IMG/VR virus record: IMGVR_UViG_3300027896_000109
Coordinates: 1-38,289 of that record
Reading direction: 5' to 3' (one strand)
From: a virus
Length of the DNA: 38,289 bases
The notes under the pieces are model-generated. The model made no database searches. It was given only the letters and a program-made list of their open reading frames with translations, and was not told where the DNA came from. A program made the translations under genes and the position numbers. Positions 5,577 to 38,289 of the stretch are shown in pieces (within the stretch, counting starts at the first letter, position 1; each line of letters opens with the position of its first letter).

Positions 5577-5801
5577 CTATGAACGCTCAGGTGATAACTT
5601 TTGCTCTTGACATATTTTTTTTCGCCGCCATTGGGTGATCAATTCCGAATCGGATTCCCAGACGCCATTCAGTTTTCTCGCCGGGAAATCTTGGCAAACG
5701 ATCCATTCCTCTACCGTCTTCCAAGACCGGCCGACAAAATTGCAAATATTCTTTTTCCCGGTAAGCAGAAAAGTCGTCATGGCGTGATCCCCGGTCGTCA
5801 T
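5577..5801 (-). CDS. Small winged-helix DNA-binding protein
   Basis: 74 residues. The segment GKKNICNFVGRSWKTVEEWI, then FPARKLNGVWESDSELITQW, has the helix-turn-helix plus wing pattern of excisionase and gpNu1-type proteins, and resembles the N-terminus of the small terminase at 11146. The ATG at 5801 overlaps the upstream stop as ATGA. A second in-frame ATG lies 21 bases downstream because a 21-base segment including the start codon is tandemly duplicated. It is the last gene of the glycan cassette, before a terminator. A regulatory role is likely but its target is unknown. Confidence 0.7.
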   Translation of the reverse strand: MTTGDHAMTTFLLTGKKNICNFVGRSWKTVEEWIVCQDFPARKLNGVWESDSELITQWRRKKICQEQKLSPERS

Positions 5802-6511
5802 GGCATGATCCCCTGCCGGTATTTTTCGTTGATCGCCGCGGTCTTGGCCAGATAGGTCTCCAGGGGTGTCGGCTCGGTGACGGTCTGCCCCCGCCAGTCC
5901 AGCGCCGCGCCGCAACGATCCTCGCCGATGAACCAGCGGGCGTAGCGGTTGACCTGGCTGTGCAGGGTCCACACCAACGACTCGCCATCGATCCGGTGAT
6001 CTACCAGGGATGGCATGGTGTACCACACCGGACGCCCCTGGGTCAGATACCAATAGGCGATGCGCACATCATAGTTGGGCATGTGGCAGTGGGCCTCGAC
6101 CCAGGCGAGCATCGGGGCAATATCGGCCACCGGCAGGAGCACCGCCGGGCCCCAGTTGAGGCGCTGCAGCACCAGCCAGCGCCCCCCCCGGCGCCCGTCC
6201 CGGCGGCATTGCGCCACCAGGTGGTTCCAGCGCTTCTTGTTGCGGACGAACAGTGAGATTGGCCGGTCCGGGGCCGCGGCAATCACTCGGGGCAAGGCCC
6301 GCAGCAAATCCCGGCTCAGGATCACATCATCCTGAAGCACCAGGTGGTGGCTGGCCGCCGGGTCGTGCAGCTCCCAGGCCCGCCGGCCGGTATCCCAACG
6401 GTTGCCGATCTGGTCCCAGGCCACCGGCACCTCCTGCCCGAGAGCGGCAAAGAGGGGGGGGATGAAGGCGGCCCGCGAGGGATGGGCCATGATGGAGACG
6501 GAGATGGTCAT
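5798..6511 (-). CDS. Putative GT-A type glycosyltransferase
   Basis: 237 residues. After an N-terminal beta strand (MTISVSIMAHPSR) comes HHLVLQDDVILSRDLLRALP near residues 55-75; the Asp-Asp pair after hydrophobic residues is the metal/nucleotide-sugar signature of GT-A folds, and the surroundings resemble GT25-like enzymes. It would transfer a sugar from a nucleotide donor; the acceptor is unknown. The start is 3 bases after the methyltransferase stop and its own stop overlaps the HTH gene start, so translation is coupled. Confidence 0.65.
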   Translation of the reverse strand: MTISVSIMAHPSRAAFIPPLFAALGQEVPVAWDQIGNRWDTGRRAWELHDPAASHHLVLQDDVILSRDLLRALPRVIAAAPDRPISLFVRNKKRWNHLVAQCRRDGRRGGRWLVLQRLNWGPAVLLPVADIAPMLAWVEAHCHMPNYDVRIAYWYLTQGRPVWYTMPSLVDHRIDGESLVWTLHSQVNRYARWFIGEDRCGAALDWRGQTVTEPTPLETYLAKTAAINEKYRQGIMP

Positions 6512-6514
6512 CGT

Positions 6515-7087
6515 TTACCCCAAATCCTGATCAAAATGATGGACTATTTGGTGATACCAGATGGACCCCAAGGTATGAAAATTCGTCCCGAAGATCTCCC
6601 GGACCGCCTGCACCACGCCCGGCCAACCGGACCGGTAGTCGTGCCCGGCGATGAGTTTCCGGGCCTTAGGCCGCCAGGCGAGAATATCGGCCCGGACCTC
6701 CTCATAGAGGTGGCCGCCGTCAATAAAGACCATATCCACCGCCGCGTCTTGGAACAGGGCCGCAGCCTCCAGACTCGGCTTACAGATCACCTGCAGGTTG
6801 GGAAAATGGTTAAGGTTTTTGAGAAACCGGGCGAAGACATCCTCCCGCTGCACCGCCCGGCAAGCCGGGTCCAGGTCCCCGGCGGCGGTCCGGCTGCCCT
6901 GCCAGTGATCTACCGCAAAGACCGGTCCATGGGTGCCGGACAACAGGGCATGGGTGCTGCGGCCATACCAGGAGCCGATCTCCACTACCGAGTCCATGCG
7001 CCCGGCGGTGGCGTAGAGCCATTGTAATAACTCGGGCCGCATCCAGCCCTTGAGGTCATTGCCGGGATAAACCTGATGAGACATCAT
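6515..7087 (-). CDS. Class I SAM-dependent methyltransferase
   Basis: 190 residues from the first of two adjacent ATGs at 7087, which overlaps the upstream stop. VVEIGSWYGRSTHALL is the SAM-binding motif I, FAVDHW the second acidic strand, and DMVFIDGGHLYEEVRADI with AGHDY are typical of Methyltransf_24-like enzymes that act on small molecules or sugars. Between glycosyltransferase genes it probably caps or modifies a glycan. DNA methylation is unlikely, because no DPPY/NPPY-type motif is present. Confidence 0.8.
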   Translation of the reverse strand: MMSHQVYPGNDLKGWMRPELLQWLYATAGRMDSVVEIGSWYGRSTHALLSGTHGPVFAVDHWQGSRTAAGDLDPACRAVQREDVFARFLKNLNHFPNLQVICKPSLEAAALFQDAAVDMVFIDGGHLYEEVRADILAWRPKARKLIAGHDYRSGWPGVVQAVREIFGTNFHTLGSIWYHQIVHHFDQDLG

Positions 7088-7740
7088 CGTTTCCCCTCGA
7101 TTAGCGGTCGGTCTCGCTCGCCGATTTTCGTATGACAATTGCCGCCGTGCACCACCAGGTCGCAATAACCCTCAGGCACCGTCACCACCCGGGGGCAAAT
7201 CTGCCACAGCCGGCGGTGATTACATTCGTAAATATAGCGATAGTTTTTCTGGTCGGGTTGGTAGAGGCTAAGGAACATCGAGGGTTGCTGCCGGTGATAA
7301 CGGGTGGCCAGGCGATAGCGTTGGCCGCTGGCCAGGTCCAGCTTGTAGGGTTGGAAGGATACCAACAGGGACTTGTCGGGCCGTTTGGCGATTTCTTTGC
7401 GAATGCGAGCCACGTAGTGTTTGGACAGCAAATCGTCGGAATCGTGCCGGGTCTGGATCGCCACCTGGGGCAGCGCCCCTTTCCCCGGCGCCAGGGCGAT
7501 GAGGCCGATTACCTGATCTTCCGCCTGGGCGCCATCCTGATATGTGCGGATCCGGGGGTCCAGGGCCTGCAAACGCTCCTGGTGGGCGGGATGACAACTA
7601 ATCCAGATGGCGAAATCCGGGCAGGTCTGGCGGGCCAGGCACGGGAGCACCTGCTGCTCGAAAAAATCCAGGCGCCAGGCGGCCCGGGGATCGTCCGGGG
7701 CGAAATATAGGCGGATGATGATGGCGTGGGTCAAAGTCAT
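7084..7740 (-). CDS. Putative rhamnosyltransferase-like glycosyltransferase
   Basis: 218 residues. It begins with an IIIRLYF strand, has QTCPDFAIWISCHPAHQERL near residue 40-55 and TRHDSDDLLSKHYVARI near residue 98-115. The Asp-Ser-Asp-Asp cluster fits the DxD motif of the putative rhamnosyltransferase family found in capsule and O-antigen loci and in phages. The stop at 7084 overlaps the methyltransferase start and its start overlaps the Stealth-like stop. Substrate and acceptor cannot be read from sequence. Confidence 0.7.
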   Translation of the reverse strand: MTLTHAIIIRLYFAPDDPRAAWRLDFFEQQVLPCLARQTCPDFAIWISCHPAHQERLQALDPRIRTYQDGAQAEDQVIGLIALAPGKGALPQVAIQTRHDSDDLLSKHYVARIRKEIAKRPDKSLLVSFQPYKLDLASGQRYRLATRYHRQQPSMFLSLYQPDQKNYRYIYECNHRRLWQICPRVVTVPEGYCDLVVHGGNCHTKIGERDRPLIEGKR

Positions 7741-8474
7741 CTCCGCGGCCCCGCTTCATAGCTGGAGGGCTCCGGGTAGAGGCGCTCCAGCAGCTGCCAG
7801 ACCAGCCGGGGCAGGTGTTCCCCGGTGGACCAGCAGGGCCGCTGGCGCAGGACTTCCAGCCAACCCTCGACGCTGCCATGGGTTCTGGCGGTCAGTTTGC
7901 AATCGGCCAGATAAACCCCGGCGATCTCCGGGCGGGAGTTGGCATAAACGCTTTTCATCACCACGCCCGGTCCCGCCAGGTCCAACCAATAGAAAGTATT
8001 AAAGATCTCCCGAAAGCACGCCGGGTGGATCAGGATGGGCGTATGCACGTCATAATTCCGGGTCGGCCGCCCCCAGCCCGCCAGCAGCCGCCGGGTATTG
8101 GCCAGGCGGCGGCTATATTCCCGGTGGAGCGATGGCCCCCCCTTGAGCTCGCCCTTGTGGTAATAGGGGAAGGCGACGGCCTCGCCATCCTGGGAAAAGT
8201 AATGGTCGTCGTTGACAAAGAGAAAGGGGTTGGATAAGCCGCGCTCCGGTTGACAGACGGCCAACATCTTGCGGATGATATTGGCATCCTTATTATGGGT
8301 GAAGGGGTCCGCCTCCGGCAGGTGCACCACCCCCCGCAGCCAGGTGGGCCGGGACCCCGCTACAAAAACCCTTTGCACCCCGGAAATATAGAGTGCCAGG
8401 CTCCGGAGCGAGAAGCGCAGCTCCCGGTGGTCTGAGAAGCTGTGATTCGTAGTAAAATAGACGACGTCGATCAT
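7737..8474 (-). CDS. Stealth-like sugar phosphotransferase / glycosyltransferase
   Basis: 245 residues from the ATG at 8474, which overlaps the large terminase stop (ATGA). IDVVYFTTNHSFSDHRELRF opens the protein, and NPFLFVNDDHYFSQDGEAVA near residues 100-120 carries the NDDhyf pattern seen in Stealth-type hexose-1-phosphate transferases. YDVHTPILIHPACF follows. It is the first gene of the cassette and is coupled to terminase translation, so it would be made late in infection with structural proteins. Function as a sugar-transferring enzyme is likely; the exact chemistry is not known. Confidence 0.65.
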   Translation of the reverse strand: MIDVVYFTTNHSFSDHRELRFSLRSLALYISGVQRVFVAGSRPTWLRGVVHLPEADPFTHNKDANIIRKMLAVCQPERGLSNPFLFVNDDHYFSQDGEAVAFPYYHKGELKGGPSLHREYSRRLANTRRLLAGWGRPTRNYDVHTPILIHPACFREIFNTFYWLDLAGPGVVMKSVYANSRPEIAGVYLADCKLTARTHGSVEGWLEVLRQRPCWSTGEHLPRLVWQLLERLYPEPSSYEAGPRR

Positions 8475-10366
8475 CTCCCCAGCCAACTCCCCTGGCGGAA
8501 TCCGGTGAAGGGGTTGACGCCGCCGGATTCCGGAATCACCGTTCCCGCCGGGCTGGATTGGGGTCGGGGCAGCAGCCAGACATTGAAAGCCTCCGCCGCC
8601 CCCGCCGCCAGCACCTCACAATCCAGCAGATGGTTCGCCCGGCCATATTGCACCGACCAGACCAGTTGCCCCTTCCGATTGCGTTCTTTGACTTCGGCCG
8701 CCAGATGCGCCCCGTAGATCTCATCGGTGTCGGCATCCAGGTGGAATAGACCGTTCTCGATGCGTGCCCAGATGAAATCCTTCAGGGCGTCGGTATCCAG
8801 CCGCCACAGCACCAGCCCGCCGGGCAGGGGTTTGCCGCTGGGATAGCAGTCAATCTGGCCCCGCACTGCCAACCGGCCCGAAGTCAGGGGCCGGGAACTC
8901 CCCTTGGAGCCGAAGATCCGCCCCCGCCCGGAGCGCCGCAACCAGTTGTAAACCTGCTCGGTCAGGGTGGCCTCCCCCTCTCCCATCAGCCCGCCGCCGG
9001 TGTCGATCAGGCCGGTCCAGACCCGGTGCTCCAGGCCGCTCATGGTACGGTAGACATCCTCAAATAGCCATTGCTCCAACTCCCCAAAACTGGCCACAAA
9101 CCCATGGCGGATTTTATGGGACTCCCGGAGGCCATCCGCAGTCAGCACCCAGGCCCGCAGCACCACCCAAAAGCCCCGTTTCTGCGAGTCAATGCCCGCG
9201 GTCAGGGCCAGGGTCTCCTCTGGCACCACCCAGGCCGGCCGGTTAGTGCGGCAATTAAGGATGGCCGCGGCTTCGTGGGACTGCACGATCTCTTTCCAGG
9301 GCTGCCCATCCCAAAGATTGGTCCAGGTTTTGAGCTGCTCGCGGTCCCGGTAGATCTCAAAAAATTTGGCGGCCATTTCCGACCAGGTGGCCAGGGGCGA
9401 GTATAGGGCGTTCCAGTGATAGCCCTGATGTACCGCTGGCCCCGGCCCGGCCTCCCCGGATTCGCCCCCCGCCGCCGGCCGCCAGACGCCCGCGGCCAGC
9501 ATCTCCGGGCGCTGCCGCTCGGTGATTTCCGCGGCGCAGTATTCGCACTGATACCGGGCCACCCGCTGCCGTTTGATATAGCCCGGATGCCGCCGATCTC
9601 GCGGCCATTGGCCCCGGGGTTCCCCGGCATGGATCACCCGGCCAAACTGCAGCACCTGATAACCGCCGCAATCGGGACAGGGTACCCAGAAGCGGCGGCG
9701 GTCGGAGCGGTCGTAATCTTTGGTGATGAAGCCCTCCGGGTCCGTGGGGGTGCTGGCGGTGATGATCTTGCGGTTCCAAAAGGATTGGCCCCGGATCTCC
9801 GCCATTTGCGTCGGCGACCCCTGCCCCGCCACGTCCAGGGGATACTTGTCGGTTTCATCCTCGAAAATATATCGGGCCTCAAAATCCCCCAGGTCGGCGG
9901 CGCTGCCGGCGGTGGCAAAGATGATCTCCATGTGCTGTAAGACGATGGATTTCTTCTGCTCATCGTCTGAATTGCCAGTGCAGTGCCGGGCCAGGTCGGG
10001 GCTGCAGCGAATCATTCGGAGAATCCGGCGGCAGGCCCGCTTCACCGAACTTTCGGTACTGGCCACCCACAGGGCCGGGGCCGGGTCCTGGGAAATGGCG
10101 TAGCCCAGCATGTTCAGCATGATTTCGGTTTTGACCGACCGGGCGCTGCCCATCAGGGTGATCCGCTCGACCTGGGGGTCATTAAACGCATCCATCGGCC
10201 CCACCGCCAGCCGCCCCTTGCCCTCATCCCAGCGCCCCGGAAAGGAGGACCCGACCGGAAACTCCCGGTGCGCCGCGGCCCACTGGCTGACGGTCAGGTC
10301 CGCGGGCGGGGCCCAGGCGGCCCGCTCCCGCGGCGACCAGATAGTTGTGTCAAGTTGCGTTAGCAT
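8471..10366 (-). CDS. terL: Terminase large subunit, GpA family
   Basis: 631 residues. The packaging ATPase and nuclease. A Walker A-like motif GSARSVKT lies at residues 73-80 (Val replaces the usual Gly before Lys, a variation also seen around the lambda gpA P-loop), Walker B YIFEDE at 166-171, a zinc-ribbon-like pair CPDC (230-233) and CEYC (274-277), and the C-terminal nuclease part contains GIDSQKRGFWVVLRAW and GLIDTGGG. The ATG at 10366 has only a close GGAG before it, so initiation may depend on coupling to upstream translation. It forms the packaging motor with the small subunit and docks on the portal. Confidence 0.93.
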   Translation of the reverse strand: MLTQLDTTIWSPRERAAWAPPADLTVSQWAAAHREFPVGSSFPGRWDEGKGRLAVGPMDAFNDPQVERITLMGSARSVKTEIMLNMLGYAISQDPAPALWVASTESSVKRACRRILRMIRCSPDLARHCTGNSDDEQKKSIVLQHMEIIFATAGSAADLGDFEARYIFEDETDKYPLDVAGQGSPTQMAEIRGQSFWNRKIITASTPTDPEGFITKDYDRSDRRRFWVPCPDCGGYQVLQFGRVIHAGEPRGQWPRDRRHPGYIKRQRVARYQCEYCAAEITERQRPEMLAAGVWRPAAGGESGEAGPGPAVHQGYHWNALYSPLATWSEMAAKFFEIYRDREQLKTWTNLWDGQPWKEIVQSHEAAAILNCRTNRPAWVVPEETLALTAGIDSQKRGFWVVLRAWVLTADGLRESHKIRHGFVASFGELEQWLFEDVYRTMSGLEHRVWTGLIDTGGGLMGEGEATLTEQVYNWLRRSGRGRIFGSKGSSRPLTSGRLAVRGQIDCYPSGKPLPGGLVLWRLDTDALKDFIWARIENGLFHLDADTDEIYGAHLAAEVKERNRKGQLVWSVQYGRANHLLDCEVLAAGAAEAFNVWLLPRPQSSPAGTVIPESGGVNPFTGFRQGSWLGR

Positions 10367-15717: not shown

Positions 15718-15748
15718 AGTTATCCTCCTAATGGCGCCGTTTTTATCT

Positions 15749-15769
15749 CCCCCCTTTAGCAAAGGGGGG
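15749..15769. repeat. C6T3/A3G6 hairpin repeat, copy 1
   Basis: CCCCCCTTT-AGC-AAAGGGGGG is a perfect 9-bp stem, followed by TCAGGGGGGATTT. The stop codon of the regulator gene lies inside it, so the repeat supplies that protein's last residues. A second copy with the same right flank lies at 35396. It looks like a bacterial intergenic (REP/MITE-like) repeat. Confidence 0.8.
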
Positions 15770-16298
15770 TCAGGGGGGATTTACCCCGCCGCGGTCCGGG
15801 CCACGTCCCTCGCACCCGCCGCCGGGCCGCCTCTTCCAGGGAGGCCAATTGCCGCTGCGCCCCCCGGACCTGGTCCTTGATGGCCTCGAATTCCGCCCCG
15901 GTAATCTCCGGGCCGCCGGGGGATTCGGTCGCCAGGGCCTCGAGCGCCGTCTGACACGTGGCCGCGATCTCCCGGAGCACCCCAGTCAGGTGCCGGTTCA
16001 GATCTTCCAGGGAGACCAGGGGTTGCGGCTGGGGCGTGGACAGGCGGCCGAAAAGGCCGTTGAGGAAATCCAGCAGGGCGAAATTACCGGTCCGGGCCAG
16101 GAGTTCCAGGAGCTCCGGACGGATCAGAGTGTGCGTCTCGCAAGTCTCATCCCGCCACTTATATAAGGTGTAGGGCGATTTGCCCACCGCATAGGCCAAT
16201 TCCTTAACCTGGCCCTCGGGGATCAGGTCGAACACCAGGCGCTTGAGCACCCGATGGCGCTCTTCCAGGGATAGACCCAGATAGGTGCCGATCTCCAT
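15756..16298 (-). CDS. Phage regulatory protein, CII/CP76-like HTH
   Basis: 180 residues. The N-terminal half (EERHRVLKRLVFDLIPEGQV, then ELAYAVGKSPYTLYKWRDE, then LIRPELLELLARTGNFALLD) matches the pattern of CII-like regulators: a helix-turn-helix followed by a dimerisation region. The C-terminal part is a charged helix. The last residues SPLTPLC come from the hairpin repeat, so the original end was probably altered by repeat insertion. It may control the switch between lysogeny and replication. Confidence 0.7.
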   Translation of the reverse strand: MEIGTYLGLSLEERHRVLKRLVFDLIPEGQVKELAYAVGKSPYTLYKWRDETCETHTLIRPELLELLARTGNFALLDFLNGLFGRLSTPQPQPLVSLEDLNRHLTGVLREIAATCQTALEALATESPGGPEITGAEFEAIKDQVRGAQRQLASLEEAARRRVRGTWPGPRRGKSPLTPLC

Positions 16299-17195: not shown

Positions 17196-17231
17196 CTTGC
17201 CCTTCCTTTTTCCTGAGGCTCTGGGAAAAGG

Positions 17232-17259
17232 ATAATACGCATATCAAACTTTATGTCAA
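17232..17259 (-). promoter_or_regulatory. Leftward early promoter
   Basis: On the minus strand TTGACA (17259-17254), a 16-base spacer, and TATTAT (17237-17232) form a strong sigma70-type promoter divergent from the repressor gene. The surrounding ~45 bases are nearly the same as those around the rightward promoter at 19156. Confidence 0.8.
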
Positions 17260-17269
17260 GGAAAAAATT

Positions 17270-17278
17270 CTATATCGA
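17270..17278. promoter_or_regulatory. Putative repressor operator element, copy 1
   Basis: CTATATCGA lies upstream of the leftward -35 box and touches the repressor start codon. The same plus-strand 9-mer recurs at 19138 at the same distance from the other promoter. Binding is inference. Confidence 0.45.
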
Positions 17279-18036
17279 TGATTAAACCTGAGCACCAAAA
17301 TATTCGGGAACGAATTTTGAGTCTGGCGGCGCGCTTTAAGATAGCTGACTTGAAAAAAGGCGGCAAACTGGCTCGGGCTCTGGGAGTCCATAATTCCGTT
17401 ATCAAGCGCCTCATCGAAAATCAATCACTGCCAGCCCTTGATAACTTAAACAAAATCTGCGAAAAGGCAGGAGTTTCAGCAGATTGGGTCTTAACCGGAA
17501 GAGAACCCGAGCCGAAAACCGAAATCCAGGTCCTGGAACCCCGGCTGCTCTTCTCCGGCCTGCCCCAGGACCTGCCCCCCGAGGTCCGCGGCCTCAATTA
17601 CCGGTCCATTCCCCGCGTGGCCGGGTTCATCGGCGCCGGCTATGAGGGCGCGGTCCCCTGGGATTACTGTGACGGCCTGGTCCTGGTCCCCGAGTCGGAA
17701 TTGGGCAATCACGCCGGGCATGACCTCCGGGCCATCAGGGTGGCCCGCCAGGCCATCTCCATGATCCCCACCATCCGCCCCGGCGACATCGTCATCATCG
17801 ACCCCCAGGACCGCCCGGACCTGCCCCTGCGCCCCGCGGATAAAAAAGCGATTTGGGCCGTGCGCTATCCAGAAGGGGATAATGCCGCCCTCAAGCGGGT
17901 CCGGGAGGCTGACGACCATTGGGTCCTGCTCTCCGATAATCACCTCATCGACCCCATTCTCATCAAAAAAGCCGAAATCCCGGACCTCATCATCGGCCGG
18001 GTCATCTGGTCCTGGACCAAATGGATAAAATCATGA
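17278..18036 (+). CDS. CI/LexA-like repressor with S24 peptidase domain
   Basis: 252 residues. An N-terminal helix-turn-helix (residues ~24-75: KKGGKLARALGVHNSVIKRL, NLNKICEKAGVSADWVLTG) is joined to an S24 autopeptidase domain. The self-cleavage site is probably an Ala-Gly pair (115-116 or 120-121 in RVAGFIGAG), the nucleophile Ser161 in ISMIPTIRPGD and the base Lys206 in AALKRV. It should maintain lysogeny and be inactivated by RecA during DNA damage. The ATG at 17278 has only a distant AAGGA, so expression is probably weak. It faces the leftward early promoter. Confidence 0.9.
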   Translation: MIKPEHQNIRERILSLAARFKIADLKKGGKLARALGVHNSVIKRLIENQSLPALDNLNKICEKAGVSADWVLTGREPEPKTEIQVLEPRLLFSGLPQDLPPEVRGLNYRSIPRVAGFIGAGYEGAVPWDYCDGLVLVPESELGNHAGHDLRAIRVARQAISMIPTIRPGDIVIIDPQDRPDLPLRPADKKAIWAVRYPEGDNAALKRVREADDHWVLLSDNHLIDPILIKKAEIPDLIIGRVIWSWTKWIKS

Positions 18037-18054: not shown

Positions 18055-18585
18055 ATGTCCCTTTTTTCCTTTCTTTTTGGTCGCCGGAAAGGCGAGGTCG
18101 AATCTCCCTTGGAAATTCAAGAAGTAGATTCGGGTTCAGGAGAACTGCTAGTAAAACTTTCTTTGAATCGGCCTTTAACCATGGCAGATTTAGAACCTGA
18201 GGCAAACGAGGATCGGGAGATCGCCCACAATACTATAATCATCGCGGCTAAAGGTACTTCGGAGCCCTATTATGAGGTAACTTTTAAAAATATCGGCGGG
18301 TCTATCAGCGTTAAATGCCAATGCCGGGCCGGGGAATTTACTCAACTCTGCAAGCACAAACTGGCCCTGGTGCGGGGGGATTCCTCCATCTTATACGAAG
18401 GGGATTTCTTTCAAACTGATGAGCAAAAAAATAACTTTCAAGCAATGCAAGGCTGGGTCCAACAATCCGGCCTGGCTCCCTTGATTTTGCAGCATGATCA
18501 GACCCAGCAGGCTTTTCTCCAAAAAGAAAAAGAGTTTAAACAGATCAAAGAGAAGATCGAACTGGCTATGAGAAAAGGAGTTTAA
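18055..18585 (+). CDS. SWIM zinc-finger protein, probable lysogenic cargo
   Basis: 176 residues. Cys88-x-Cys90, Cys99-x-His101 (KCQCRAGEFTQLCKHKLAL) is a CxC-xn-CxH SWIM finger, associated with DNA or protein binding. The N-terminus MSLFSFLFGRRKGE and a helical C-terminus (QTQQAFLQKEKEFKQIKEKI) flank it. AAGGAG precedes the start. It follows the repressor by 18 bases, so it is probably expressed in the lysogen. It is more AT-rich than the phage backbone, suggesting recent acquisition. Role unknown; regulation or defence are possibilities. Confidence 0.65.
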   Translation: MSLFSFLFGRRKGEVESPLEIQEVDSGSGELLVKLSLNRPLTMADLEPEANEDREIAHNTIIIAAKGTSEPYYEVTFKNIGGSISVKCQCRAGEFTQLCKHKLALVRGDSSILYEGDFFQTDEQKNNFQAMQGWVQQSGLAPLILQHDQTQQAFLQKEKEFKQIKEKIELAMRKGV

Positions 18586-19084: not shown

Positions 19085-19099
19085 CATCCCTTCCCTGCG

Positions 19100-19122
19100 G
19101 CGGCCTTCGGGCCGCTTTTTTT
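19100..19122 (+). terminator. Intrinsic terminator of the repressor operon
   Basis: GCGGCC-TTCG-GGCCGC followed by seven T residues: a 6-bp GC stem with a stable UUCG tetraloop. Confidence 0.9.
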
Positions 19123-19137
19123 ATGCTCTAAAAAATA

Positions 19138-19146
19138 CTATATCGA
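19138..19146. promoter_or_regulatory. Putative repressor operator element, copy 2
   Basis: CTATATCGA, same plus-strand 9-mer as at 17270, ending 9 bases before the -35 box of the rightward promoter. In each promoter's own reading direction the two copies are reverse complements at the same place. Confidence 0.45.
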
Positions 19147-19155
19147 ATTTTTTTC

Positions 19156-19183
19156 TTGACATAATATTCTAAATGCGTATTAT
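19156..19183 (+). promoter_or_regulatory. Rightward early promoter
   Basis: TTGACA (19156-19161), a 16-base spacer and TATTAT (19178-19183). GAATTTTTT before the -35 box and ATGCG before, CC after, the -10 box are shared with the leftward promoter, so both probably answer to the same repressor. Confidence 0.8.
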
Positions 19184-19233
19184 CCTCTTCATAGCCACAC
19201 GGGAATCAAACCCCACTACTCCAGGAGGTAGTT

Positions 19234-19764: not shown

Positions 19765-20043
19765 ATGAGCCCCAGACACCAAGCGGCTGCTAATGTCCCC
19801 CTGGACATCCTGGCGGGATTAGACCTGATCTATACCCTCTTATCCCTCTATGCCCCGGATAGTTGGGAGCGGCGGCAGGTCTTCGATTTTCTGGCCGACC
19901 TACGAACTAAAGAACTTTCCCCCCATCACGTTCTCTGCCCTCAATGTGACAAAGAGCCGCTGGTCTGCCCGAAGTGCGACGACCTCACCGCGCAATGTGA
20001 TTGCGATCCCCACCTCGTCATCAATGGGAGGCACTACCGATGA
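19765..20043 (+). CDS. Zinc-ribbon protein with three cysteine pairs
   Basis: 92 residues, AAGGAGG upstream. The N-terminal half is helical (VPLDILAGLDLIYTLLSLYA). The C-terminal half holds CPQC, CPKC and CDC, enough for one or two zinc sites. Probably a protein- or nucleic-acid-binding early protein; no family recognised. Confidence 0.65.
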   Translation: MSPRHQAAANVPLDILAGLDLIYTLLSLYAPDSWERRQVFDFLADLRTKELSPHHVLCPQCDKEPLVCPKCDDLTAQCDCDPHLVINGRHYR

Positions 20044-20106: not shown

Positions 20107-20331
20107 ATGCCGGAACTCCTGATCCCCCGATATCGCTGCCCGGACTGCGGCCTCTTTTTTCTAAACCCGACCCTGGCGATCGCCGCCCTTTACTGCGGCT
20201 GCCCCGGCTGCGACATCGGGGTTTATGGTCTTCGCCCCTATCGGACCGCCGACGGCACCGAAATCCCGGACCGCCCGCCCCGGCCGGCCCGCACGATTAT
20301 TCGCCTGGGAGGTGAAATCGATGCAATGTAA
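20107..20331 (+). CDS. Small zinc-ribbon protein
   Basis: 74 residues. CPDC near residues 11-14 and CGCPGC near 30-35 fit a zinc ribbon; the C-terminus is Pro/Arg-rich. The terminal part contains GGAGGTGA, the ribosome binding site of the next gene, and overlaps its first codons by 11 bases. Function unknown. Confidence 0.6.
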   Translation: MPELLIPRYRCPDCGLFFLNPTLAIAALYCGCPGCDIGVYGLRPYRTADGTEIPDRPPRPARTIIRLGGEIDAM

Positions 20332-20772
20332 AAATTGCGGTAAAGACTGCAACAAGGCCGCCCTTGGAAAATTTGCGAGGAGCACCAGCGCCTGTTGAAG
20401 GAAATCAAGACGACCCTACCGCCCCCGGAGGTCCCCGAGGGTGACACCGGGGCCGTCCAGGGATTGATCGCCGGAGAGACCTCCATCCCCCTGGCGGAAA
20501 TAAACATGGTGTTGAAAGAGGCGATGATCGAGACCAACGGCATCCTCAGCGAATATTCGTCCCGGATTGTCGCTAACACCGCCGGAACGCCGCCGGGGGT
20601 GATCGTGCCGCCGGATGGCTGGGACCGCCTGAAAGAGGCCCTCAGGGCGGCCTTTGACCTCTATTTCCGCCCGCACCCGGATGAATTAACCCAATTCGGC
20701 CATACCTGTGATCAATTCAAGGAGCGTCCCCATGCCCGCCTCGACTCCGATGATGACGGCGACCCGGATTGA
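20321..20772 (+). pseudogene. Zinc-knuckle protein carrying a copy of the tape-measure C-terminal motif, apparent frameshift
   Basis: The ATG at 20321 has an excellent GGAGGTGA site and gives MQCKNCGKDCNKAALG, a cysteine knuckle, but this frame stops at 20397. The +1-shifted frame, readable from ~20360 to 20772, continues ICEEHQRLLKEIKTTLPPPE and then AVQGLIAGETSIPLAEINMV-LKEAMIETNGIL at 20452-20547. That stretch matches tape-measure residues 791-822 at 27 of 32 positions. One extra A in the AAAA run near 20364 would make a single ~150-residue protein. The second half ends in an Asp-rich tail. Without frame repair, a TTG at 20395 could start a 125-residue product. Role unknown. Confidence 0.6.
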
Positions 20773-20881
20773 CCGCCTCCGGCGCGGGCTCGACGCCGAG
20801 CCCGGCCCCTGGCTGTCCCTGGCCCTCTGGCTTTTAGGCCTGGCCCTGTTCTGCTGCTGGGCCTGGCCGGGAGGAAATTAG
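20732..20881 (+). CDS. Small membrane protein, one span
   Basis: 49 residues from the ATG at 20732, with AAGGAG about 8 bases upstream. A basic start (TRIDRLRRGLDAEPGP) precedes one transmembrane helix, WLSLALWLLGLALFCCWAW. It overlaps the preceding gene by 41 bases in another frame. No function recognised. Confidence 0.5.
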   Translation: MPASTPMMTATRIDRLRRGLDAEPGPWLSLALWLLGLALFCCWAWPGGN

Positions 20882-20934: not shown

Positions 20935-21774
20935 ATGCAAGAAATCATTATTGGAAGAGAATTGTTAAAGGTATTTTTAAGCGATTTACTCAAGAAAAAC
21001 CTTTCGATTCCACAAATAAAATATTTTGTGCAAATTGGACTCCCAACAAAAGCAAACGGAATTTATGATAAATCGAAAGTCGAGAATTGGGTGATAGATA
21101 ATATTGATCGCATAGAATTATATCTATCCAGATTTGCCAAGGATAAATCCATACAAAAACTGGGAATTAGACGTAAACAATATCCTATTGGTATGTCCAA
21201 TAAAATATTAAATATAATTGGAAAAATAATATCTGATGGTACCGATCGATTTTTTGTTGACGATATTGCTCCACTTCTCTTTGACGATGAGAAAGATTAT
21301 ATCCGTAAAAGGGCTATGGTTCGTTATTATCTGGATACGATGGCTAGTAAAGGTACACTGATAAAAACCAAATTGGGCGATCGAATAATTTTCTCCGGTT
21401 CGGCTCTTCTCTTTAATGAATTAAAACTAATGGAAAAAGAAAGATTACCAATGAGTAACGAAAATAAACTAAATAATAAGGAGGAACCGCCAACAATATA
21501 TCCTATTGCGGAAAAGGAATTAAATAGCGAGGAGGAAAAACCGGCGATTTCGGGATCTTTGGAAGAAGCTGCTATTAAATCCTCACATAGAAAGCGGCGA
21601 TTTCGATCTTTCTATTGTGAGGTTTGTCCAGACGATGAGGTCTTACACTATAAAAAACTCGATAAAGTACAATTCCGTTATTGCCATAAGTGCAATTCGA
21701 GATATTATCTGCTTAATGATGAGATTTTTCGGACTGGGAATCCAATAGAACCGTTCACCATGATCGTCGAATAA
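20935..21774 (+). CDS. AT-rich cargo gene: winged-helix plus zinc-ribbon protein
   Basis: 279 residues; base composition is far more AT-rich than the phage backbone, a clear sign of transfer. Residues ~1-60 (FLSDLLKKNLSIPQIKYFVQ, then KVENWVIDNIDRIELYL) and 85-160 (NIIGKIISDGTDRFFVDDIA, then RYYLDTMASKGTLIKTKLGD) look like two helix-turn-helix or winged-helix units. An acidic linker follows, then a zinc ribbon, Cys228/Cys231 and Cys250/Cys253. AAGGAG precedes the ATG. Its place between the early operon and the integrase suits an anti-defence, defence or excision-control gene, but no family is recognised. Confidence 0.75.
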   Translation: MQEIIIGRELLKVFLSDLLKKNLSIPQIKYFVQIGLPTKANGIYDKSKVENWVIDNIDRIELYLSRFAKDKSIQKLGIRRKQYPIGMSNKILNIIGKIISDGTDRFFVDDIAPLLFDDEKDYIRKRAMVRYYLDTMASKGTLIKTKLGDRIIFSGSALLFNELKLMEKERLPMSNENKLNNKEEPPTIYPIAEKELNSEEEKPAISGSLEEAAIKSSHRKRRFRSFYCEVCPDDEVLHYKKLDKVQFRYCHKCNSRYYLLNDEIFRTGNPIEPFTMIVE

Positions 21775-24208: not shown

Positions 24209-24526
24209 CTATTCTCCTGGCGGGGCCGGTTTCGCCCGGGACGGCGGCGGCCCTGGGGGCATCCATGGCTCTTCTGATCCCCATTGCGGACCGGAGGACC
24301 GCCAGACCCGGCCGGCGGTGTTGACCCCATAGACGCCGGCGACGCTGCCCACAATCACGGAGATATGAGCCCAGATACCTAATCTGATCCCCAGGGCCTC
24401 ACAAGCCCCCATGATCGGCAGATAAACCAGGATGAGCACCATGAGCAGCAGCCGGGACGCCGACAGCTGGCCCGAGGAGGGATCGATAATCAACTCCACC
24501 GGCTTCCGTCGGCCCCGGCGGCTCAT
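24209..24526 (-). CDS. Putative holin
   Basis: 105 residues from the ATG at 24526, which overlaps the endolysin stop by one base. Two hydrophobic segments (SRLLLMVLILVYLPIMGACE and AHISVIVGSVAGVYGVNTAG) and a polar, Pro-rich C-terminus fit a two-span holin. The place between endolysin and spanins supports it. Sequence alone cannot exclude another small membrane protein; the protein at 25468 is the other holin candidate. Confidence 0.6.
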   Translation of the reverse strand: MSRRGRRKPVELIIDPSSGQLSASRLLLMVLILVYLPIMGACEALGIRLGIWAHISVIVGSVAGVYGVNTAGRVWRSSGPQWGSEEPWMPPGPPPSRAKPAPPGE

Positions 24527-25062
24527 CACGCCCCCCAGGGCACCGGAGCCAGGGGCCCGGTGCGCACCTTGATCCAGGGCAGTTGGAAGTGCATCCCATC
24601 CCGCAGATTATCCGGTTGCCAGAGCCCGCCCCACTCGAAGCCGGACTCGGCAAAGCACTTGACGAAGTCGGGGGATAGGGACGGGTCCTCGCCAAAGCCG
24701 TTGTTGCCGGCGTTCAAATCCACGGCCAACCCCCAACTGTGCACCGAGTAACCCGAGCCGCCCGTTTTCCGCCGGATATTGAAGCAGCCATCATAGGTCT
24801 GGAGTTCCGGCGCCAGGCCCCGGGCTCCCAGGAGGCCGAAGGCTCGGCGCAAGGGGGCTTCCAGGACATAGTTGCCATAGATTTTGTGGCCCCAAGGGTT
24901 GCCCTCATAATCCCGGACATGAGCGAAGGCGGCGGCAAATTCGGGGAAATCCAGAGACCGTAAATAGGTCAGAGCGAACTCAGGATCCCTGGGGTCGCCA
25001 AAGATAAATATCATCTGCGATTGAAACATCGGGAAATCAATTTGGGTTTCTGGATCAAGCAT
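24526..25062 (-). CDS. Endolysin, M15 peptidase family
   Basis: 178 residues. SGYSVHSWGLAVDLNAGNNG (Ser106-x-His108, Asp115) and FEWGGLW (142-148) with DGMHFQ (His158) supply the zinc ligands and catalytic acid of VanY/M15 D,D- or L,D-peptidases, which cut peptide stems of peptidoglycan. There is no signal peptide, so release depends on a holin. It overlaps both neighbouring genes. Confidence 0.88.
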   Translation of the reverse strand: MLDPETQIDFPMFQSQMIFIFGDPRDPEFALTYLRSLDFPEFAAAFAHVRDYEGNPWGHKIYGNYVLEAPLRRAFGLLGARGLAPELQTYDGCFNIRRKTGGSGYSVHSWGLAVDLNAGNNGFGEDPSLSPDFVKCFAESGFEWGGLWQPDNLRDGMHFQLPWIKVRTGPLAPVPWGA

Positions 25063-25300
25063 CCCTCATCCTCCTTTCTACTGCCAGGACCACAAGTTTG
25101 TAGCGATCTGCCACCCCAAATTTCGCCCGGAGATGATCGCAATGGCTATCAATCCCACGTTCGGAGATTCCCATAGCCTCGGCCATTTCTTTGCAGGTAT
25201 AGCCCAAGGACAACATATTAAAGATTTGTTGTTCCCTGGCGGTGATTACCACGGCCCCGCATTCAACGCACCTGGAGAAGTCGCCTTTTAACTTCACCAT
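25055..25300 (-). CDS. LuxR-type HTH protein in the lysis operon
   Basis: 81 residues from the ATG at 25300. After a CVEC pair comes ITAREQQIFNMLSLGYTCKE-MAEAMGISERGIDSHCDHLR, the GerE/LuxR four-helix DNA-binding unit almost entire; no sensor domain is present. The start overlaps the previous stop as ATGGTGA, and the stop overlaps the endolysin start. It may time lysis or late transcription. Confidence 0.8.
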   Translation of the reverse strand: MVKLKGDFSRCVECGAVVITAREQQIFNMLSLGYTCKEMAEAMGISERGIDSHCDHLRAKFGVADRYKLVVLAVERRMRDA

Positions 25301-25466
25301 AGTTTCCACCAGGGCCGCCGGGGCGCTTCCGGCAGGCCGTCGATAATGACGAAAACATCCTCCAGGCGAATATTCTTCCCCTTGGCCCAGAGTTCCAGGC
25401 GCCGCCGGTTGATCCGGCTTTTCAAAATCGCCTTCTGCTCCGGGGTAAAACGCCAGGTGGCCCCAT
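25294..25466 (-). pseudogene. Small basic protein gene, start frame broken
   Basis: The frame ending at 25294 reads WRFTPEQKAILKSRINRRRL-ELWAKGKNIRLEDVFVIIDG and looks like a real basic helical protein. It ends overlapping the LuxR-like start. The nearest ATG (25466) lies one base after the upstream stop but in a different frame that stops within 15 codons. One extra G in the GGGG after that ATG would restore it. A TTG at 25425 could start a 43-residue version. So either a damaged or misassembled gene or a non-ATG start. Confidence 0.5.
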
Positions 25467-32489: not shown

Positions 32490-32756
32490 TTAGGCGGTGC
32501 CCCACCTGATTTTTACCCGGTCCGTGCACCCGGCCAGGGCCGGGGCCACGGGGGCCAGGTAGATATTCACCGCGCAGCCGGCCCGGTCGGTCCGGGTATG
32601 CTCCCAGCGCAGCGACCCATACGGCGCCCCTTCCAGTTCGGTAATCGGGTCGTAGGACACCAACTCCCAATAGACCGCCCCATCCGGTCCGGGACCGCGG
32701 GCGGTCAGGACTCCGCCGCCGCCAATGCGGGGCGCGAACGGGGCCAGGAGGCTCAT
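32490..32756 (-). CDS. Small protein after the tape measure
   Basis: 88 residues. An N-terminal Gly-rich beta part (MSLLAPFAPRIGGGGVLTAR) and YWELVSYDPITELEGAPYGS; the end is IYLAPVAPALAGCTDRVKIR. The ATG overlaps the tape-measure stop. In siphoviruses small tip-assembly proteins occupy this place; identity not recognised. Confidence 0.55.
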   Translation of the reverse strand: MSLLAPFAPRIGGGGVLTARGPGPDGAVYWELVSYDPITELEGAPYGSLRWEHTRTDRAGCAVNIYLAPVAPALAGCTDRVKIRWGTA

Positions 32757-35374
32757 GCCAACCCTTTCTGTAGATAATCCGCAAAATATTGATCCAGCCA
32801 GTCAAATAAAGTTTGCCGACTAACCGCCTGGATAATCAATGGCGTGCCGCTGCTACCGCTGCCGCCGTTGCCGCGGAACGCGGCCACCACCGCGGCAAAT
32901 CCCTCCTGCAAAATCCCATTGGTTTCGAGCATCGCTTCCTTCAGGCCCACGTTAATTTCCGCCATGGGAATGGAGGTCTCCCCGGCGATCAGGCCCCGGA
33001 CCGCCTCGTGGGAAGTCACCCCGCTCTGCACCCCGGAGGCGCTATAGGATGACGTGCCGCCGCTGGTCAGGAGCATGCCGATCAGGCCAATGACCCCCAT
33101 GACCGCGTTGGCGATGGCGCCGCCGGCGGCCCCGAAGATCGCTTTGAGACCCTGCACCAGCAAGTTCTTGAGCTGATCCAGGCCGGACTTCAGGGCATCG
33201 TCAAAAAGTTTTTTGAAGAAGGTGTTGAGGGCCTTGAGCACATCCTGCCCCCCCTGCATGATCGAATCCACCAGGGTGCTGAAGCCGGAGACGATGGTCC
33301 CGGCCATGGCCCCATATTGGGCATCGGCCTGCTTCGCCTGGAGATTGGCTTGTAAGGCTCCGGCGAATTCCGGGGTGTAGCCCCCGGCCTTGATCGCCTC
33401 GGCTTTGGCCCGCTGCCAGTCGAGATAAAGTTTTTGCAGGATGGCTTCCTGGGTGGAGATCGCCCCCAGAAGTTGGGCGGTCTCGATGGTCAGGTCCTCG
33501 GTCTTTTCCCGGTATTGCCGCCGGATCTCCACCTGCTTGGTGAGTTCCTCGGTGAGCCGCTGCTCGCCCGTCAGCCGGATCTTGGCGGCGTCGGCGTCCA
33601 ACTTGGCGAGCTCCGCCCGGTTCTTCATCTCCAATTCATAGCGCCGGTAGGCCGCCACTTGCGGGCTGACCTGCTCCAGGGCCAGACCTTGCAGGGCATC
33701 AGCATGGGCCTTGATTTGCGCCTGTTTTTTCTGGTCGATTAAGGCCAGGGCCGCGGCGGTTTCCCCTTGCTCCATCTCCTTGAGGCGCTCGTAATAGGTC
33801 TGGCCGTCAATCAGGCCTTCGGCTAGTTGCTTATCCAGTTCCGCCTTTTTGACGGCGTGCTCCGCCTTCAAGACCTCAATCGACTCTTCGGCCTGTTTGA
33901 GATCCGCCTGGCGGATAGTCTCCACCATCTTCAGATAGGCCCGCACCTCCTGATCATATTCGATATCCGCGGCGCTTTTCCCCGTCTTTGCGGCCCTGGG
34001 CGCATTCACGGCCTGGTCCTGCAGGGCCTTTTTGGCGGCTTTGTCCGCCCGGGCCTGGGCCCCGGCATTATCCCGGTTAATGTCCGTTTCCAACTGGGAT
34101 GCCAGCTCCGGGGAAATTTCCCCTCGGGGGCTGATGCCGGGAACCGGTTTTAATTTGATACCTTCTTCGGGGCTGGTCAGGGGACCGTGGCCCTGGGCCG
34201 CGGCCTTCTTTTGGGCCGCATCAATTTCTTTTTGCAAACCGCGGATTTGGTTCAGGCCATAGGCGATGCCGCCCACGGTCACCGCAATGGCGATGGCCCA
34301 CGGGCCGGAACAAGCGATCTGCAGACCCAGCACGGCCCCGGTGGCGGCGATAATCTGGGGGATCACGGTGGTTAAGGCCACGCCGATATTAAGGATATAA
34401 CTGGCCATTTTGGCGAACACGGCCAGTTCCAAAATCGTCATGATCAATTCTTTATGGGCCGCGACAAAATTAATGACCATCTTGATCGACAAAAAGCCGT
34501 TTTCGATATAGGCGACGATGACTTCCGAGAGTTTGGCCAGTTCGACGCGATTACGGATGATCCACTCATAAAAATCTCGCCAACTCTGGATTTCCGCCCC
34601 GGTGATGGCCACGGAAATCGGCTTGATGAATTCAAACAGGGCCTCTTTGGCCTGCTTGACCGCCACTTGATAGCGTTCCAGCTCGCGGATCGAGGTGTCC
34701 GTCGCCTCGGTCCCGACCCCCTTCATTTTGGCCGCGGCCTGCAAGACAAAATCTGTCAGGATTTGCGCTTTTTCCGCCCCGGAAATCAGGGTGGAATCCA
34801 GCATCTTTTTGGTTTCCGAGCTGGCCGCGGCTAAGGCTTCGCGGATGCCTGGGGTCAATTCCGCCAGGGCTTTGGGGGTGCCCTTGGTGATCGTCTTAAC
34901 GATGGCGTCAAAGGCGTCGTTGACCGTCATCGCCATGCTGGGGGCCAAATCCTGGGCGGCCTGGGCCAGTTTCGGCAGAAAATCGATCGAGACCCCGGCC
35001 TTGAGGAAATTGTTGACCGCCTGCAAGGCCCGGTCCTCTTCAATGCCCTTGGCTTGGAGTTTCTGGACATAAAGATCGATGTCCCCAGCCGCGAGGTGGT
35101 AATAGCGGCCGAGGGCTTCGGCGGAAATCCGCAGCAATTCCGACTTGCCGCCGATCTCCAGAATGGATGAAGCAAATTGTTTTAATTGCGAGACAATTTC
35201 ATAGAGGCCGAGGCTGATCCCGGCGAAGGACAGGACTTCCTTGATCCGTTGGCCGAACGATTCCGCCACCCCCTGGAAGGAGGCCAATTGCTGGCGGCCC
35301 TCCATCAGACCCTGTTTCAGGTCGGTGACATCCACCCCCAGTTTGGCGATTAAACTGCCGAGATCGTCAGCCAT
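32753..35374 (-). CDS. Tape measure protein
   Basis: 873 residues, the longest gene, in the tail region between chaperone and tip genes. Long helical, Ala/Lys/Glu/Gln-rich stretches, several hydrophobic segments (~275-370 and ~735-780), and an opening DLGSLIAKLGVDVTDLKQGL typical of tape measures. It sets tail length, fills the tube and is ejected with DNA. By the usual scaling (~1.5 angstrom per helical residue) it predicts a tail of about 130 nm. Residues 791-822 are copied in the early gene at 20321-20772. Confidence 0.92.
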   Translation of the reverse strand: MADDLGSLIAKLGVDVTDLKQGLMEGRQQLASFQGVAESFGQRIKEVLSFAGISLGLYEIVSQLKQFASSILEIGGKSELLRISAEALGRYYHLAAGDIDLYVQKLQAKGIEEDRALQAVNNFLKAGVSIDFLPKLAQAAQDLAPSMAMTVNDAFDAIVKTITKGTPKALAELTPGIREALAAASSETKKMLDSTLISGAEKAQILTDFVLQAAAKMKGVGTEATDTSIRELERYQVAVKQAKEALFEFIKPISVAITGAEIQSWRDFYEWIIRNRVELAKLSEVIVAYIENGFLSIKMVINFVAAHKELIMTILELAVFAKMASYILNIGVALTTVIPQIIAATGAVLGLQIACSGPWAIAIAVTVGGIAYGLNQIRGLQKEIDAAQKKAAAQGHGPLTSPEEGIKLKPVPGISPRGEISPELASQLETDINRDNAGAQARADKAAKKALQDQAVNAPRAAKTGKSAADIEYDQEVRAYLKMVETIRQADLKQAEESIEVLKAEHAVKKAELDKQLAEGLIDGQTYYERLKEMEQGETAAALALIDQKKQAQIKAHADALQGLALEQVSPQVAAYRRYELEMKNRAELAKLDADAAKIRLTGEQRLTEELTKQVEIRRQYREKTEDLTIETAQLLGAISTQEAILQKLYLDWQRAKAEAIKAGGYTPEFAGALQANLQAKQADAQYGAMAGTIVSGFSTLVDSIMQGGQDVLKALNTFFKKLFDDALKSGLDQLKNLLVQGLKAIFGAAGGAIANAVMGVIGLIGMLLTSGGTSSYSASGVQSGVTSHEAVRGLIAGETSIPMAEINVGLKEAMLETNGILQEGFAAVVAAFRGNGGSGSSGTPLIIQAVSRQTLFDWLDQYFADYLQKGLA

Positions 35375-35395
35375 TACCTGTCCTTTTCCTTATTT

Positions 35396-35464
35396 CCCCC
35401 CTTTGATAAAGGGGGGTCAGGGGGGATTTTAAATCCCCCTAAATCCCCCTTTTTCTCAGGGGGA
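35396..35464. repeat. C6T3/A3G6 hairpin repeat, copy 2, with two further hairpins
   Basis: CCCCCCTTT-GAT-AAAGGGGGG (35396-35416), then TCA, then a perfect palindrome GGGGGATTT-T-AAATCCCCC (35421-35439), then CCCCC...GGGGG. The first unit and TCAGGGGGGATTT are shared with 15749. It fills the gap between the chaperone frame and the tape measure and may act as an mRNA attenuator. Confidence 0.8.
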
Positions 35465-36718: not shown

Positions 36719-37246
36719 TTATCCTCCCGTGAGTGCAAAGGCATCGCCGGCGGCGTGCCCGTAGGTGAGTTGATAGGCCATAAATAACACCCCGTAGTCC
36801 GAATTGTAGCGGGCCTGATCCACCCGGCCCGGTTCCACCAGGATCAGGCCCGCGGCCCGCAATTCGCCGGGCGCCGCAAAAAGATTGGCGATCCGCCCGG
36901 CGACAGTGGCCGCCGCATCTTTAAAGGCGGTGAAGCTGGCGAGATCATCCGGGTCCAGGACGAAAAAGACCTCCAGCCAGAAATCGAGTTTCCCGAGAGT
37001 CAGGCGGTTAAAGGACCCCGGTTCCGCTTGTTCATTTTCCCAGCAGTAGAGGGCGGGCATGGCCAGGCCGGTGAAATCCGCCGGGATGTCCTCCTCCCGT
37101 TTTACCACCGCCACCTCCAGGATCTCGTTTAGGCGCTCCTCGATGGCCCGGAGCAGCCCGGTCTTGATGGTCTCCCCCACCGGCTGCAGCAGACCCAGCC
37201 CATAAAAAACCCCGCGGCTGACGAATCCTAAATAATCTCGGGCCAT
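36719..37246 (-). CDS. Tail completion / terminator protein
   Basis: 175 residues. RDYLGFVSRGVFYGLGLLQP, AIEERLNEILEVAVVKREED, and the position immediately before the tube gene fit gpU/gp17-like proteins that cap the tail at the head end. It overlaps the previous gene by 19 bases and ends two bases before the tube start. Identification is by order and general features. Confidence 0.65.
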   Translation of the reverse strand: MARDYLGFVSRGVFYGLGLLQPVGETIKTGLLRAIEERLNEILEVAVVKREEDIPADFTGLAMPALYCWENEQAEPGSFNRLTLGKLDFWLEVFFVLDPDDLASFTAFKDAAATVAGRIANLFAAPGELRAAGLILVEPGRVDQARYNSDYGVLFMAYQLTYGHAAGDAFALTGG

Positions 37247-38289
37247 GTCGGGGCGCTCCGTTCGGTGGTCGTCGCCAGGCGGCGATATTGGCCGGTGGCC
37301 GCGGGGGTGGCGCCGTCCCCTTGATAAAGGGTCCAGGTGCCGTCGGCGTTGAGGACCACCAATTTATTCATCGCCAGCCAGGCCAACTTGCGGATTAGGT
37401 CGCCTAAGGAGTTGAGCGTCAGGGCGGCCCCGTCCCCCAGGTCGGCGCCGAGGATCTCGGCCAGGGAGAGATCGTTGAGGGCATTGATCGCCGCCAGCAC
37501 CCCGGACAGGTCAGTTGTGGGAATCCCGGCAATAGCCGCCTCCAGTTCCGTCTGGGTGGGCGGGTCATAGGAGACCAAGGCTGCTCCAGCCCCGGCCTCG
37601 GCGTGGGTAGCAACATTGCCTTCCAGGGCCAGGTCGGAGATATCCGGGAGCACCGCGATAATGGCTGCCTGCGCCGCATCCAACTCGCCCTTGGTGGCTC
37701 CCTGGGTGGCATCATGCAGCGCATCCAGGGTCTGCTTGGTCCCGGAAATCGTGAACCCGGCCTTGTCGGTCAGGACCGCCGGCAGGAACCCGGACACATC
37801 AGCCGCGGCCAGGGTCGCCGGGGATTTACCCATGACCGCCCCTGGTTTAGCCGGGCCGTAAGTAGTTAGGGCTGCCCCAGCCCCGGCCTCTGCATGGGAG
37901 GCGACATTCCCTTCCAGGGCCACGGCCCCGGCACTCAGGTTATCAAGGTAGCCCGCCCTTAAGGCCGTCAACCGGGTCAGAAGAGTATCAACATCCGCCG
38001 GGATATTGAGTGACCCTAGCTCATCGAGGTATCCGGCCCGATCCGCGGTCAGCCGGGATTCCAAGTCATCCACGTATTCTTTAATGGCCTTTAAAGTTTC
38101 TGTGGACCAACCTGAACCTTTGATTGCCGTCAAACTTGCCTCCAAAGCCTGGGCATCCTTAATGGCCTTTAGGGTCTCGGTTGACCAACTGGCCCCCTTG
38201 ATCGCCGTCAGGGTCGCTTCCAGGGCCGCCGCCCCAGCCGAGAGATTATCTAGATAACCGGCCCGAGTCGCCGTCAGCCGGGATAGATC
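37228..38289 (-). CDS. Repeat-rich structural protein, cut by the right edge
   Basis: The frame is open from 38289 to 37228, at least 353 residues; the beginning is missing. The apparent TTG start at 38145 is only the first in-frame start-like codon. It is built of repeats: RLTATRAGYLDNLSAGA-like units, LTAIKG-x-x-WSTETLKAIK twice, and ALEGNVASHAEAGAGAAL / ALEGNVATHAEAGAGAAL. It ends NADGTWTLYQGDGATPAATG and RRLATTTERSAPTWPEII. Such repeats occur in phage fibres and head or neck appendages. In this position, between head and tail-completion genes, a head/neck fibre is likely. Confidence 0.7.
   Translation of the reverse strand, partial: DLSRLTATRAGYLDNLSAGAAALEATLTAIKGASWSTETLKAIKDAQALEASLTAIKGSGWSTETLKAIKEYVDDLESRLTADRAGYLDELGSLNIPADVDTLLTRLTALRAGYLDNLSAGAVALEGNVASHAEAGAGAALTTYGPAKPGAVMGKSPATLAAADVSGFLPAVLTDKAGFTISGTKQTLDALHDATQGATKGELDAAQAAIIAVLPDISDLALEGNVATHAEAGAGAALVSYDPPTQTELEAAIAGIPTTDLSGVLAAINALNDLSLAEILGADLGDGAALTLNSLGDLIRKLAWLAMNKLVVLNADGTWTLYQGDGATPAATGQYRRLATTTERSAPTWPEII

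Follow-up and report, generated by a model that had tools for sequence, protein, structure and literature searches.

The complete virus record analysed here, hereafter the window (38,289 bases), raises the question why a small gene in an early operon encodes sequence from the C-terminal end of the phage's own tape-measure protein (TMP), and what such a stand-alone copy might do. The genome is that of a lambda-type siphophage with terminase, portal, major capsid protein, tail chaperone, major tail protein and CI-like repressor genes identified by PHROGs, and an integrase. The head genes continue beyond the left end, and the neck and tail genes that follow them come in at the right end, so that the record resembles a circular map opened at a single point.

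Features of the early region and of the TMP are compiled in Table 1. The two promoters lie inside 66-nt inverted copies which are 77% alike, and a preliminary description made from the sequence rightly pointed out that the early gene lies behind a promoter resembling the leftward early promoter. Twin promoters and a terminator-like hairpin together form a pL/pR layout and thus indicate early expression under repressor control, a prediction that is well supported for the operon. The ORF carrying the TMP-like sequence (domain ORF) fits an early pL-type gene, as it is located on the cI-int side, with a cI-like promoter upstream, and downstream of the terminator.

Two further ORFs of this region deserve mention. 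An ORF between cI and the early promoter (18055-18585, +) showed a weak match to the candidate defence model PDC-S62 (E = 7e-7) as well as a cysteine/histidine stretch, and is possibly a prophage-expressed gene. Between the domain ORF and the integrase, an AT-rich ORF with CxxC pairs (20935-21774, +) has a third-position GC of 0.30 compared to about 0.75 for its neighbours; it looks recently acquired and no match was found among named phages.

Table 1. Positions of early-region and tape-measure features in the window
Feature	Position	Strand	Remarks
Twin promoter TTGACA-16-TATTAT adjoining the repressor gene	17232..17259	-	within repeat copy 17210-17275
CI-like repressor	17278..18036	+	PHROG 4, E 1e-26
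Terminator-like hairpin	19099..19116	+	separates repressor transcript from pL-like operon
pL-like promoter TTGACA-16-TATTAT of the early operon	19156..19183	+	within 66-nt repeat 19140-19205
Small cysteine-rich ORF upstream, same operon	20107..20331	+	stop overlaps ATG 20321
Leader ORF, 25 codons, CxxC, strong SD (GGAGGTG)	20321..20398	+	frame differs from the domain
Domain ORF, 125 aa, stand-alone copy of the TMP C-terminal domain	20395..20772	+	TTG start, TGA 20772
Full copy of the TMP C-terminal domain (AVQGLIAG...DLYFR)	20452..20670	+	17-TMP profile, positions 1-68/76; alignments
32-residue motif, early copy	20452..20547	+	reads AVQGLIAGETSIPLAEINMVLKEAMIETNGIL; 27/32 aa and 75/96 nt as in TMP
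Small downstream ORF (MPASTPMM...), AAGGAG SD	20732..20881	+	starts within 3' end of the domain ORF
TMP C-terminal domain, residues 791-873, paralogue of the early copy	32756..33004	-	alignments, profile
Tape-measure protein, 873 aa	32753..35374	-	four prophage TMPs related along its length

The tape-measure domain copy and its origin

The counterpart of the early motif consists of TMP residues 791-822 (AVRGLIAGETSIPMAEINVGLKEAMLETNGIL), encoded at 32909-33004 on the minus strand, and the match has an E value of 9e-13 for the second place within the record, far above chance. The preliminary description had reported this match and a DNA similarity short of identity; coordinates, residue numbers and both counts proved exact on recheck. 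It had taken the shared part to be a motif of 32 residues, which was too small, as the entire C-terminal domain of the TMP (about 73-80 residues) aligns. A profile constructed from 17 other TMPs, with both window copies left out, scored 54.5 bits for the early ORF and 62.2 bits for the window's own TMP; the early ORF thus fits the family nearly as well as a true TMP, and this match to related TMPs makes it a member of the TMP C-terminal domain family. The early ORF can be aligned to related TMPs far beyond the 32 residues, up to the last conserved YFR. It is not a whole TMP, having only 125 codons and no long coiled-coil or hydrophobic body ahead of the domain, and lying in the early rather than the tail operon. 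Chimeric assembly as the source of the two copies was ruled out, as they differ at 21 of 96 bases.

Genomes of Syntrophobacterales/Syntrophales and other 'Deltaproteobacteria' yielded four prophages with related TMPs, and further related TMPs came from IMG/VR records and from the class of one prophage host. In each of these, the ORF has between 558 and 1218 codons and terminates with the conserved stretch. No matches were obtained when IMG/VR was searched with a single sequence (small ORF, TMP end or entire TMP) or with a degenerate DNA pattern; likewise, none of 31 records reached via the terminase and none of the named phages contained a TMP match. A profile search of the PDB returned chance matches only, homology to solved TMPs thus not being detectable. 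A 40-nt element, TTATCTCCCCCCTTTAGCAAAGGGGGGTCAGGGGGGATTT, occurs in two copies which are 90% alike (15743-15782 and 35390-35429), one of them just upstream of the TMP start.

Both window copies have AEIN, LKEAM and ETNGIL in common and share a 4-residue insertion after ILxE which other TMPs lack. The closest DNA to the copy is that of the phage's own TMP, whereas any other TMP found reached at most 61 of 96 identical bases. A tree paired the two window copies with moderate support (83/87), both branches being long. The shared insertion, the closest DNA and the grouping in the tree together place the copy in the lineage of the phage's own TMP, from which it derives either by duplication or via a sister phage.

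Constraint and reading frames

Within the motif, 15 synonymous and 6 non-synonymous changes were counted, corresponding to a dN of 0.088 and a dS of about 1.4, which is near saturation. The preliminary description's proposal of an old duplication of TMP sequence is supported. It had also proposed selection on the motif; the dN/dS of about 0.06 across the motif agrees with this and is far from the value near 1 of a pseudogene. Simulated neutral drift of the copy resulted in a mean of 18-26 amino acid differences with a minimum of 11, compared to the 5 observed, and neutral drift of the copy since the split is excluded by this simulation. Relative-rate counts, depending on the outgroup, assigned 5-9 private changes to the copy and 3-14 to the TMP; the copy has evolved no faster than the TMP. 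Simulation and private changes together show that the copy was constrained for most of its history, its motif having been under strong purifying selection during the greater part of the period after its separation from the TMP. This constraint may have acted either on a stand-alone protein or on the end of another TMP which was captured late. For the 13 codons following the motif, comparison with the own TMP gave a dN/dS of about 0.9. The GC contents of the three codon positions are 0.64/0.44/0.76 in the domain ORF and 0.62/0.40/0.75 in the TMP.

The proposed fusion of the motif to a cysteine knuckle did not hold. Positions 20321-20772 comprise two frames rather than one ORF: the frame opened by ATG 20321 (MQCKNCGKDCNKAALGK..., reading MQCKNCGKDCNKAALGKFARSTSAC) contains the CxxC and is terminated by the TGA at 20396-20398, which the TTG start codon at 20395 overlaps (TGTTGA). 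The SD sequence of this TTG start is poorly spaced (12 nt). For CxxC...CxxH to arise, the frame would have to shift by -1 around 20369-20374. We examined GGA AAA TTT as a site of programmed -1 frameshifting, but the case is not convincing, as there is no in-frame X_XXY_YYZ heptamer and the downstream fold is ordinary (z -0.9). The out-of-frame cysteine part suggests a recent break, and the change of frame is either a recent mutation or assembly error, or else the leader ORF couples translation to the TTG start.

A regulatory zinc-finger early protein with the TMP piece as a passive tail would agree with the cysteine-rich nature of several neighbouring early ORFs (19765-20043 and 20107-20331). 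We regard it as very improbable, since the domain is not read in the frame of the cysteine part and it is the TMP part which shows the selection signal.

The domain ORF showed no apparent signal peptide or membrane helix when read from sequence, and its N-terminus (MKEIKTTLPPPEVPEG) has no signal sequence and thus does not qualify as an Ltp-type lipoprotein signal. It matched no family in PHROGs, Pfam or PADLOC (the PADLOC library dates from 2023 and predates the publication of Tab), and its AlphaFold model, with a mean pLDDT of 50, was too poor for a structure search.

Only one instance of a stand-alone TMP C-terminal domain is known. About 20 related TMPs, three prophage hosts, eight virus records, 29 of 29 genomes of one class and 395 genomes of the phylum yielded no second stand-alone copy, nor did self-comparison of the large ORFs in all fetched loci. 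One candidate with a cysteine part (L107) was wrongly taken for a second copy and is a 912-aa TMP. Searches for the same operon elsewhere, made with the cysteine-coding part, with the early ORFs next to it and with the following gene, detected no relatives; as the neighbouring early ORFs lack relatives, the comparison did not include a truly close phage. The expectation that related phages carry the motif outside TMPs was thus left without a second example, but this absence says little because no relative of this early operon was found either.

These results bear on the main rival to a functional early protein, namely that the 3' end of a sister phage's TMP was recently captured into an early gene by illegitimate recombination and is now a non-functional, decaying fusion, the conserved motif reflecting selection in the donor TMP. 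The frame break between cysteine part and domain, the lack of a second stand-alone copy in relatives, a conservation pattern which is just that of TMPs and a cysteine part without detectable relatives all agree with such a capture. However, the search found no donor TMP nearer to the copy than that of the phage itself, the domain ORF is intact with a coding-like codon composition, and the homology starts at or near a domain boundary. We consider recent capture about as likely as the role in tail assembly discussed below.

Possible roles of the stand-alone domain

In phage JBD30, the C-termini of the TMP are located in the baseplate core, where tail assembly starts, and the fold of this end is common to T5 and 80alpha (PMC11445458). 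The JBD30 domain (residues 1067-1158) belongs to the same length class as residues 791-873 of the TMP described here; as there is no detectable sequence homology to the solved TMPs, the structural role is assigned from position alone. Unlike in JBD30, a homologue of the own TMP's C-terminal domain here also stands alone in the early operon. Tab, a prophage protein, prevents tail assembly, with sensitivity mapping to the TMP C-terminus (PMC10884400).

By analogy, we tentatively propose, with a probability of about 0.37, that the free domain is a competitor at the tail-tip partner of the TMP C-terminus and interferes with tail assembly in a Tab-like manner, but by self-mimicry. The proposal draws further on the whole-domain homology, the relation to the own TMP, the constraint on the motif and the twin promoters. 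The stand-alone domain would retain the binding surface of the TMP. In siphophages, this surface would hold the TMP trimer fixed in the core of the tail tip (baseplate), the starting point of tail assembly. If made freely in the cytoplasm, the domain might occupy this tail-tip site or poison TMP trimers, and would thereby compete with tail assembly in a dominant manner. Its main targets would be co-infecting related phages with a TMP closer to the copy, the own TMP having presumably drifted in its last 50 residues. Coupling of translation by the leader ORF to the TTG start would yield a domain lacking the cysteine knuckle. The lack of a visible signal peptide or membrane segment favours a cytoplasmic partner, as expected for a role in tail assembly, over a partner in the inner membrane. 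On the other hand, a competitor expressed early in the lytic cycle could harm its own phage, no partner gene for self-protection was found, and the conservation of the motif could date from its time inside a TMP. Further points against it are the single instance, the out-of-frame cysteine part, the poorly spaced SD of the TTG start, the dN/dS of about 0.9 in the 13 codons after the motif and the uninformative AlphaFold model. The more general idea that the anchoring domain of the own TMP was turned into an early self-mimic, either competing with the TMP of co-infecting phages or soaking up defences which recognise the TMP, seems to us somewhat unlikely.

Tab, from Pseudomonas phage JBD26 (PMC10884400), is, like the early ORF product, a small temperate-phage protein proposed to interfere with tail assembly via the TMP C-terminus. 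Its gene lies between terminase genes, is expressed from the prophage and is paired with anti-Tab, whereas the early ORF lies in an early operon and is a putative self-mimic; the available part of that report does not describe Tab as a TMP copy. The Tai tail assembly inhibition systems (PMC11364771) are likewise phage- or satellite-borne proteins which halt tail assembly, a likeness by description only, and the available part of their report does not establish the TMP as their target. Superinfection exclusion lipoproteins of the Ltp type (PMC3952083) are also tied to the C-terminal region of the TMP, but Ltp is a surface lipoprotein that binds the TMP, whereas the early ORF resembles the TMP itself and has no lipoprotein signal. 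In searches of the open-licence literature, no stand-alone TMP C-terminal domain with a competitor role was found.

Interference with the TMP C-terminus is an antiviral strategy recognised only recently (Tab), and the tail-tip partner of the domain is conserved. If the proposed competition is correct, a phage-made copy of the TMP end would be a natural dominant competitor and a ready tool to find the partner of the TMP C-terminus. It would also represent a simple evolutionary path from structural gene to exclusion gene and predict more early genes copied from structural domains, which could be found by self-comparison of phages. Even as a mere relic, the copy would date an exchange between the tail and early modules.

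The domain might instead bind whichever inner-membrane or periplasmic host protein the TMP interacts with and thereby block DNA entry of later phages, as envisaged for injection decoys and superinfection exclusion. TMPs act with host inner-membrane proteins in injection, as for SNIPE/ManYZ (PMC13190303), the Sie lipoprotein Ltp targets the C-terminal region of the TMP (PMC3952083), and early expression suits exclusion. We nevertheless consider this role improbable, as the ORF has no visible signal peptide or membrane segment and the ManYZ dependence of lambda was tied to residues around 300-400 rather than to the C-terminus (PMC13190303).

An equally improbable alternative is that the early copy serves as a counter-defence sponge, titrating a Tab-like host or prophage protein which recognises the TMP C-terminus and thus protecting later tail assembly. 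Early phage genes often encode counter-defence functions, and a sponge would fit early expression and avoid self-harm. Tab recognises the TMP via its C-terminus, and phages carrying Tab also carry anti-Tab (PMC10884400), but a Tab-like system was not recognised in related hosts.

The two motif copies form the strongest inverted repeat of the window and face each other, with both variable 3' ends inside a 12.4-kb segment, and the early copy has a domain-like 3' end of its own. Recombination across the inverted motifs could therefore exchange the TMP tail end for an alternative 3' cassette, comparable to invertible tail-fibre segments. However, the 78% DNA identity extends over 96 nt only, exact runs are short, an inversion would take the integrase, lysis and tail-tip genes along with it, and none of the examined genes near the repeats was recognised as an invertase. 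We rejected an inversion switch on the grounds of this low identity and of the lack of a recognised recombinase near the repeats; a cassette is highly improbable, and the least likely explanation when compared with sponge, decoy and recent capture.

Further features of the genome

Two sugar-transferase-like genes are located between the large terminase gene and the portal gene (7084-8486, -), which is an unusual place. They matched Rhamno_transf PF11316 (E 6e-17) and, as a Stealth_CR2-like sequence below the cutoff of that model, Stealth_CR2 (E 3e-7); a third ORF (5798-6511) comes after this pair. In the lysis region, an ORF with a LuxR-type (GerE) DNA-binding domain (25055-25309, -) is located beside a peptidase M15-like gene (24526-25062). 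At the right end, a neck/tail ORF (37228-38289, -) contains repeat units of 42 to 74 nt which are 60-87% alike, suggesting that its product is internally repetitive.
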